Positions 31,617-33,737 of a DNA stretch of 39,048 nt are shown here, piece by piece (the first letter of the stretch is position 1; the number at the start of each line of letters is the position of its first letter). Origin of the DNA: Alphaproteobacteria bacterium (lineage in GTDB: Bacteria > Pseudomonadota > Alphaproteobacteria > UBA6615); assembly GCA_027297685.1 (NCBI GenBank), contig JAPUHN010000288.1:1-39048 (forward strand), in the 5' to 3' direction. A program made the position numbers and the translations under genes. The notes under the pieces were generated by a model that saw only the letters and a program-made list of their open reading frames with translations, did no database searches and was not told the DNA's origin.

Positions 31617-31955
31617 ATGCCGTACGTGGTGACCGAGGCTTGCATCAAATGCAAGTACACCGACTGCGTGGAAGTCTGCCCCGTGGATTGCTTCTACGAA
31701 GGCGAAAACATGTTGGTGATACATCCCGACGAATGCATCGACTGCGGCGTGTGCGAGCCTGAGTGCCCGGCTGAAGCGATCATCCCCGATGTCGAGCCGG
31801 AAGCCGAGAAATGGCTTGAAATGAATCGTGAATACTCGGAAAAGTGGCCGAACGTTACGACCAGGTCGGATCCGCTGCCGGACGCAGACGCAGTCAAGTC
31901 AGAGCAAGGAAAGTTCGATAAATACTTCAGCTCCAATCCGGGCCAGGGTGATTAA
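31617..31955 (+). CDS. fdxA: Seven-iron ferredoxin FdxA
   Basis: A 112-residue [3Fe-4S][4Fe-4S] ferredoxin. Cysteines at 9, 12, 17, 21 and 25, then [12 protein letters not shown] (40, 43, 46, 50), follow the spacing of Azotobacter-type FdI. The extra loop and acidic C-terminal region of the family follow. It is a small soluble electron carrier. The ATG at 31617 is preceded by an AAGGAAGGA ribosome site. The fdxA-carD pair is a familiar neighbourhood in alphaproteobacteria. Confidence 0.94.
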
Positions 31956-32239: not shown

Positions 32240-32749
32240 ATGAAAAGAAAAGCGCTTAAGGATTTGGAATTTGGCAAAGGGGATTTTGTTGTTTACCCGA
32301 CGCACGGCGTCGGCAAGGTAACCGGTGTCGAGGAACGTGAAATTGCCGGCCAGAAGCTGCAACTGTTTGTTGTCAGCTTCGAAAAAGAACGAATGACTTT
32401 GCGGGTTCCCATCGAGAAGGTTAAGGAATCCGGCCTGCGGAAGCTCTCCAGCGGTAAAGTGATCGATACTGCGCTCAAGACCTTGAAGGGTCGCGTGCGC
32501 GTTAAACGGACGATGTGGAGCCGGCGGGCCCAGGAATACGAAGCAAAGATAAATTCGGGCGACCCGGTCGCGATCGCCGAAGTGGTGCGCGATCTCCATC
32601 GCAACGCCGATCAACCTGACCAGTCATACTCCGAACGCCAGATGTATCAGGCGGCGCTCGAACGATTGGCCCGCGAGTTGGCAGCGGTCGAACAGGTCGA
32701 GCACGAGGCGGCGGTCGATAAATTGGAAACGCTTCTGAGTGCGGCCTAA
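32240..32749 (+). CDS. carD: CarD/CdnL-family RNA polymerase-binding regulator
   Basis: A 169-residue protein. The N-terminal Tudor-like RNA-polymerase-interaction domain (FGKGDFVVYPTHGVGKVTGV, then EFV-type strands, residues about 10-70) is followed by a helical domain containing the basic tryptophan motif RTMWSRRAQEYEAKI that stabilises the open promoter complex. Relatives (CdnL, mycobacterial CarD) are essential or growth-critical activators of rRNA and housekeeping promoters. It is followed by a very strong terminator. Confidence 0.93.
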   Translation: MKRKALKDLEFGKGDFVVYPTHGVGKVTGVEEREIAGQKLQLFVVSFEKERMTLRVPIEKVKESGLRKLSSGKVIDTALKTLKGRVRVKRTMWSRRAQEYEAKINSGDPVAIAEVVRDLHRNADQPDQSYSERQMYQAALERLARELAAVEQVEHEAAVDKLETLLSAA

Positions 32750-32793: not shown

Positions 32794-32827
32794 GGCCGGG
32801 CACGGACACCGTGCCCGGCCTTTTCTT
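32794..32827 (+). terminator. Strong rho-independent terminator after carD
   Basis: A perfect 12-bp GC-rich stem (GGCCGGGCACGG with its complement at 32809-32820), a three-base ACA loop and a TTTTCTT tail. It lies 44 bp downstream of the carD stop. Confidence 0.93.
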
Positions 32828-32909: not shown

Positions 32910-33737
32910 ATGTCGCACCCGCTCGTCGATACCGATAAGATTTCTGTGTTGCGCCACCCGCAACGGGTGTGGGCAGTTGCGTCTGTGCACGGCGAAGCCG
33001 GCAAACTAGCCCGTTTGCATCAGGAAATTGCACAGCGCTATCGGCCGGGCGACCGCCTCGTCTATTTGGGTAACATCTTGGGCCGGGGTGGAAATCCGGT
33101 CGACGCTGTCGATCACTTGCTGGCGTTCCGGTGCGCTGTTATCGGCATGCAAGGAATGTTTGTTGGCGATGTCGCCATTCTGCGCGGCGCCCAGGAAGAG
33201 ATGTGGCAGAAGTTGCTGCAACTGCAATTGGCGCTTAACCCGGCCGAAGTTTTGACTTGGATGCTTGACCAAGGCGTCGATGCTACGCTGACGGCATATG
33301 GCGGCAACGCGGCCGACGGTCTTGCCGCGGCGCGCTCCGGCGCGCCGGCATGCGCAAGATGGACGGCAACACTACGCGACGCAGTGCACGCGCGCACCGG
33401 CCATACGCATTTCTTGTCGGCGTTGCGCCGGGCCGCGGTAACCGAGCCTCGCGCGAGCGACGGCGCCGCATTGTTGTTCGTAAACGCCGGCCTTGATGTA
33501 AGCCGTCCGCTGGCGACACAGAAGGACAGTTATTGGTGGCCTTCGGCGGACTTCGATCGAATAAACGAACCCTATGGAGATTTCGCGCGAATTGTCCGCG
33601 GCTTCGACAAGCAGGCGGCCGGTCTGACCGAAGGATTGTTCACCGTCAGTGTCGACGGCGGTGCGGGCCGGGGCGGCGCCTTGCTGGCGATTTGCCTCGA
33701 TGCCGCGGGCGCCGTTGTCGAAACGCTGGAAGCGTAA
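32910..33737 (+). CDS. Metallophosphoesterase-fold protein lacking the metal ligands (predicted pseudo-phosphatase)
   Basis: A 275-residue protein whose layout follows PPP-type serine/threonine phosphatases. The active-site motifs are altered. GDxHG is here ASVHGEAGKL, GDxxDRG is GNILGRGGN, GNHE is GMQGMF, the HAG after the core is NAG (LFVNAGLDVSRPL), and the later VHGHTP is VRGFDK. Almost every metal-binding Asp, Asn and His is therefore gone, while the scaffold residues around them and a full-length frame remain. I infer a non-catalytic binding or regulatory protein. The start is ATG 32910. It stands alone after the carD terminator and is convergent with the M48 gene. Confidence 0.65.
   Translation: MSHPLVDTDKISVLRHPQRVWAVASVHGEAGKLARLHQEIAQRYRPGDRLVYLGNILGRGGNPVDAVDHLLAFRCAVIGMQGMFVGDVAILRGAQEEMWQKLLQLQLALNPAEVLTWMLDQGVDATLTAYGGNAADGLAAARSGAPACARWTATLRDAVHARTGHTHFLSALRRAAVTEPRASDGAALLFVNAGLDVSRPLATQKDSYWWPSADFDRINEPYGDFARIVRGFDKQAAGLTEGLFTVSVDGGAGRGGALLAICLDAAGAVVETLEA

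Follow-up and report, generated by a model that had tools for sequence, protein, structure and literature searches.

A Conserved Alphaproteobacterial Protein Family With a Predicted PPP Phosphatase Fold and a Replaced Metal Site, Frequently Encoded Next to carD

The Locus

The window, i.e., the whole stretch of 39,048 nucleotides that was analyzed, is one contig of an alphaproteobacterial genome of 3.84 Mb that is 97.85% complete. The gene of interest, encoding a putative pseudophosphatase, is preceded on the same strand by S4-domain, TerB, fdxA and carD genes, and on its 3′ side an M48 peptidase gene and a staphylococcal-nuclease-like gene are found on the opposite strand. The features concerned are:

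31617..31955, plus strand: fdxA-type ferredoxin gene (Pfam Fer4, DUF3470)
32240..32749, plus strand: carD, CdnL-type RNA polymerase-binding regulator (Pfam CarD_C 4.8e-25, CarD_TRCF_RID 1.3e-14)
32794..32820, plus strand: hairpin resembling an intrinsic terminator, 12 pairs followed by TTTTCTT, separating carD from the pseudophosphatase gene
32910..33737, plus strand: putative pseudophosphatase gene, 275 amino acids and stop, predicted PPP fold without the two-metal site (open reading frame, predicted structure)

The frame at 32910–33737 is free of internal stops over its 275 amino acids, as the original prediction had it, and a stop is present within the reverse strand of the gene. In its own genome the gene is the sole match at E ≤ 1. 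The best Pfam match of the window protein is Metallophos_3 at 13.4 bits, below the gathering cut-off of 28.2, and NCBIfam returned no match at E ≤ 1, its ApaH model included; among 36 family members, Pfam gave a single Metallophos_3 match at E ≤ 0.01 (best E 0.0094). Pfam and NCBIfam hold no family that covers the window protein, and the family described here would name proteins that have no assignment in either.

Predicted Fold and Motif Remnants

The AlphaFold2 model of the window protein, computed from an alignment with 80 relatives from named genome records, reached a pLDDT of 94.6 and a pTM of 0.92. Foldseek searches with this model ranked 2qjc, lambda phosphatase and RLPH2 at the top, and VIA-align superposed it on RLPH2 (5vjv) with a Z score of 21.4 and an rmsd of 3.2 over 226 aligned residues, followed by the PnkP phosphatase (Z 20.8), 2qjc (20.2), lambda phosphatase (19.2) and PP1/PP5 (about 17). 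Structure prediction and superposition, by which the original prediction was to be checked, thus point to a PPP metallophosphoesterase rather than to an unrelated fold, and the window protein is predicted to adopt the PPP fold along its whole length. Searching the solved structures with the single window sequence gave chance-level matches only; the family profile matched PPP structures weakly, yet in keeping with the fold (2qjc 4.7e-5, 5vjv 1e-4). Profile–profile comparison of 36 orthologues with nine intact paralogues gave a probability of 99.7% (E 1.8e-26, 226 columns), and because of this score and the PPP fold of the predicted structure the motif match is not due to chance. The remnants of the five PPP motifs, together with one look-alike, are located as follows:

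32979..32993, plus strand: motif I remnant ASVHG, residues 24–28 (canonical GDxHG), aligned with nine intact paralogues
33069..33089, plus strand: motif II remnant GNILGRG, residues 54–60 (canonical GDxxDRG)
33144..33158, plus strand: GMQGM, residues 79–83, not the GNHE motif according to the alignments
33186..33197, plus strand: motif III remnant GAQE, residues 93–96 (canonical GNHE), from paralogue and profile–profile alignments
33483..33491, plus strand: motif IV remnant NAG, residues 192–194 (canonical HAG)
33600..33605, plus strand: motif V remnant GF, residues 231–232 (canonical GH)

The six PPP metal ligands, which we take to be D64, H66, D92, N124, H173 and H248 in PP1 numbering, are reduced to one in the window protein when it is aligned with the intact paralogues: in motif I the canonical aspartate is replaced by serine and the histidine, H27, is retained, and motif V reads G231-F-D233 in full. 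The earlier statement that nearly all metal ligands are replaced therefore holds, and so does its placement of motifs I, II, IV and V; its motif III does not. GMQGM, originally taken as the counterpart of GNHE, is ruled out, as the intact-paralogue and the profile–profile alignments both put GNHE on G93-A-Q-E96 (window LRGAQEEM versus LKGNHEAM in the intact paralogues). GMQGM comes after a stretch that is gapped in the latter, and GAQE sits within the almost invariant family stretch LRGxQEEMW. Judged from these residues, the window protein does not carry the PPP enzyme motif set with its six metal ligands, and the missing ligands suggest that it performs no catalysis; H27 and N55 could still coordinate one metal.

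Note also that two family-specific segments, residues 73–78 (33126–33143) and 100–104 (33207–33221), are missing from the intact paralogues, residues 73–78 being gapped in eight or nine of the nine; R74 and K101, one in each segment, are invariant in alignment A1.

Distribution and Conserved Residues

A profile search of 289 alphaproteobacterial genomes (the class sample, at least 90% completeness requested) detected the family in 103 of them at 195–419 bits, the next matches below it being intact-type PPP paralogues at no more than 74.3 bits. Among the window's own genome and its relatives, 41 of 95 have a match at E ≤ 1e-3. The public genome collection yielded at least 559 relatives among at least 591 stretches with the search pattern, of which the best 80 were taken for analysis; record titles among the matches listed include Azospirillum, Nitrospirillum, Niveispirillum, Denitrobaculum and Oleisolibacter as well as many alphaproteobacterial metagenome bins. 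In a phylum sample 17 of 397 genomes gave a match, all carrying the same class label or the window's own, a figure that has no bearing on absence elsewhere, and the plasmid collection searched contains no relative of the window protein. One contig (L073), whose title assigns it to an Anaerolineae metagenome bin, bears an alphaproteobacterial-type copy adjoining carD and is probably mis-binned.

The loss of ligands is a property of the whole family and not of the window copy alone. Within it no sequence with intact ligands turned up, in agreement with the original prediction: an aspartate at position 25, 55 or 58 occurs in none of 118 family sequences, and across the six ligand positions one or two ligands are kept in 109 sequences, none in eight and three in one. 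Canonical residues are rare elsewhere too (H95 in two of the 118, N94 in three, H232 in one). Several replacements are fixed or nearly so among 105 members, namely N55 (102), G58 (105) and Q95 (103), and N55 and G58 recur in all 13 further, more distant members. H27 is present in 103 of the 105 and lost in six of the 13 added later (L156, L161, L163, L165, L166 and L167). Position 192 is more variable (H in 46, N in 43, S in 14 and A in 2 of 105), and position 232 is F or Y in 100 of 105.

E96 and H165 are invariant in alignment A1, and 18 columns are invariant across 36 aligned sequences. The mean Jensen–Shannon score is 0.69 for motif-loop columns versus 0.51 for other columns (Mann–Whitney p 2.4e-5), a conservation that is owed in part to glycines required by the fold; five of nine former active-site positions vary (25, 59, 94, 192 and 232).

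Ancestry

In a quickly built tree with long branches for L037, L166 and L167 and with nine intact PPPs as sole outgroup, a single branch (SH-aLRT 100) separates 49 pseudophosphatases from the intact proteins. Since all pseudophosphatases fall into one clade, a single loss of the metal site is indicated, and from the aligned sequences the ligands would apparently have been lost once. L044 is excluded from the paralogue set, its match having fallen in an unrelated long frame.

Selection on the Gene

The dN/dS ratio of the pseudophosphatase gene lies between 0.058 and 0.155 over ten pairs, and between the window and L048 it is 0.092, which falls inside the interval spanned by ten neighboring genes (0.032–0.152), all these ratios being rough because several pairs approach saturation at synonymous sites. 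No internal stop is found in 102 of the 103 class-sample members; one carries an internal TAG. Both results favor selection over decay, as had been proposed from the first reading. Together with the conservation of the motif loops, they exclude simple decay and suggest that the former cleft is still relevant. The gene thus appears, from its sequence, to be a conserved pseudophosphatase and not a decaying gene; predicted fold, loss of catalytic residues and selection across a clade, the marks by which a pseudophosphatase is recognized, are all present. As the relatives share the ligand losses and are under selection, a working non-enzyme is probable.

In L035 (G018:C1:1-6000), which was excluded from alignment A1 and from the tree, the gene is spread over two overlapping frames (residues 1–167 and 158–275), either through an assembly error or through a true frameshift.

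The carD Neighborhood

In the class sample, 87 genomes have carD among the matches listed, 16 of the 103 family members thus being left out of the count. In 72 of these 87 the gene shares the strand of carD and begins at most 600 bases downstream of it (median gap 150), in three further genomes it lies within 1.5 kb of carD, and in 12 elsewhere or on another contig; the 12 include different-contig cases in which adjacency is only partly judgeable. Likewise, carD is upstream in 33 of the 37 loci L001–L037, including L037, the most diverged in A1 (29% identity), and in 71 of the best 80 of at least 559 relatives; fdxA, a part of the conserved order fdxA-carD-pseudophosphatase, is present in 64 of these 80. 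On the tree, seven changes are counted between positions beside carD and elsewhere, the gene not being lost, with L008 (contig edge) unlabeled and two loci that have carD a few kb upstream scored as beside carD.

An RpoH-type gene is found 3′ on the same strand in at least 26 of 80 and at least nine of 37 loci. It also follows carD in at least six of 20 loci chosen for absence of the pseudophosphatase gene (L137, L139, L140, L141, L142 and L145, same strand); the counts are lower bounds because many stretches are too short to show rpoH. The longest-frame gene maps, which mis-drew several genes, served to spot candidates, and the sigma factor was confirmed by Pfam, with sigma-70 regions 2 and 4 in the RpoH-type frames of L140, L142 and L164. 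In L128 (G001:C5:210500-216000), a relative from the window's own family, pip directly follows carD, and the pseudophosphatase, M48 peptidase and nuclease-like genes are all missing there. The order fdxA-carD-pseudophosphatase, with rpoH in places, looks old and broken several times.

A terminator scan of the region around the gene gave one site versus a mean of 2.3 in shuffles, so that the count is not significant, the shuffles giving more, and it is the 12-pair stem that stands out. A similar terminator occurs in 16 of 64 other loci (0.1 expected from shuffles), and the gap between carD and the gene is below 60 bases in 13 of 64. The partial correlation of pairwise distances between the gene and carD is 0.44 over 63 loci with fdxA as control and −0.02 over 20 loci with fdxA and helicase as controls. 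Co-evolution specific to CarD was rejected, since the correlation vanishes with the helicase control and other neighbors score as high.

The position by carD suggests a link with transcription. Given the terminators, the relocations and the lack of a CarD-specific distance signal, this neighborhood is a lead and not proof of function.

Possible Functions

We consider it probable that the window protein is a PPP-fold pseudophosphatase that apparently lost its metal site once and is kept as a soluble protein that, free of metal, serves for binding or as a scaffold through the former cleft. An ancestral alphaproteobacterial PPP phosphatase would have lost its two-metal site, apparently in a single event; the inactive protein would afterwards have been retained while other residues became fixed in it, and the former active-site loops would provide a binding surface, as in eukaryotic VPS29. 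That the cleft is used for binding is what we infer.

The weakest step is the partner. A more specific form of the same explanation, which we put forward tentatively, makes the protein a partner dedicated to CarD, RNA polymerase or the neighboring sigma-32-type (RpoH-type) factor that would tune transcription initiation. Caulobacter CdnL binds RNA polymerase and has a homologue in virtually all alphaproteobacteria, according to PMC5324124, in which terms for phosphatase and neighboring genes retrieved nothing on the pseudophosphatase gene. The adjacency to carD, which persists down to 29% identity, and the RpoH-type gene downstream speak for such a partnership; the terminators, the relocations and the distance test oppose tight coupling. 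Moreover, fdxA and carD themselves stay in order although no joint function is obvious, and RpoH follows carD without the gene, so that the position may be merely inherited, and as carD is present in 261 of the 289 genomes and the family in 103, CarD does not need the pseudophosphatase. More doubtful still is the version in which the protein would act as a metal-free sensor or adaptor, its emptied cleft accommodating a nucleotide or else a peptide from CarD, RNA polymerase or an RpoH-type sigma and thereby tuning rRNA or stress transcription in alphaproteobacteria.

Rather improbable is a protein that is still an enzyme, its fold adapted to a reaction that needs one metal or none, such as nucleotide hydrolysis. 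H27, N55, Q95, E96, H165 and R230 would be the candidate residues, and the near invariance of the polar cleft-loop residues H27, N55 and Q95, the invariance of E96 and H165 and the weak matches of nine of 36 members to the NCBIfam symmetrical diadenosine tetraphosphatase model (E ≤ 0.01, best 6.5e-7) agree with it. However, the motif I aspartate and both motif II aspartates are missing from every one of the 118 sequences, motif III almost always has glutamine in place of its catalytic histidine, H27 is lost in six of the 13 distant members, and no ApaH match was obtained for the window protein.

A role as regulator of an intact PPP paralogue, through pairing or competition for substrate, is very improbable: an A2-type PPP does accompany the pseudophosphatase in 60 of 103 genomes and occurs in 60 of the 186 that lack it (odds ratio 2.9, ignoring genome size and phylogeny), but in 43 of the 103, the window's own genome included, no A2-type PPP is matched at E ≤ 1e-40. 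Decay of the gene, which the lost metal ligands, the split frame of L035 and the single TAG might evoke, is scarcely credible in view of dN/dS ratios near 0.06–0.16, 102 of 103 frames without internal stops and 18 invariant columns in 36 sequences.

The preferred reading, a metal-free binding or scaffold protein, concerns a family of hundreds of members that apparently lost the metal site only once, has intact paralogues to be compared with and keeps a steady place by a global transcription regulator; its function is therefore testable in culturable genera such as Azospirillum and Nitrospirillum.

Comparison With Known Systems

The closest sequences to the family in the sampled genomes are the intact PPP phosphatases of the A2 set (Pfam Metallophos, PF00149), which share its fold and length class and are 26% identical to it over 226 aligned columns. 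Unlike the pseudophosphatase, all nine retain the metal-ligand residues of GDxHG, GDxxDRG, GNHE, HAG and GH; they are without the stretches 73–78 and 100–104 and form a clade apart. The best structural matches are RLPH2 (Rhizobiales-like phosphatase 2, 5vjv), the PnkP phosphatase domain (4j6o) and the lambda Ser/Thr phosphatase (1g5b), with Z scores of 19–21 and 15–20% identity to the window protein in structural alignments. These three are active metalloenzymes. ApaH, the symmetrical diadenosine tetraphosphatase, likewise belongs to the PPP type by its fold (Z 17.6 between the window protein and the E. coli enzyme, 9ojd) and is weakly matched by the nine relatives mentioned above, but its metal ligands are missing from the pseudophosphatase.

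The PHLPP2 pseudophosphatase has a PP2C-type fold. It is metazoan, unlike the bacterial family described here. PMC12002173 presents it as a metal-dependent phosphatase in which the active site has diverged and activity has been lost. A literature search that covered few subscription papers turned up eukaryotic pseudophosphatases, bacterial pseudokinases and pseudo-orthocaspases, and within that coverage no bacterial PPP pseudophosphatase family and no paper on the fdxA-carD-pseudophosphatase order.

VPS29 lies on a different branch of the metallophosphoesterases. It resembles the proposed role as a metal-free phosphatase fold, by functional analogy and not by membership, being eukaryotic and part of another complex. 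PMC7539009 describes VPS29 of the eukaryotic retromer as an inactive phosphatase fold, and studies among its references treat it as a protein-interaction scaffold; the use of such a fold as a scaffold is thus an existing route.
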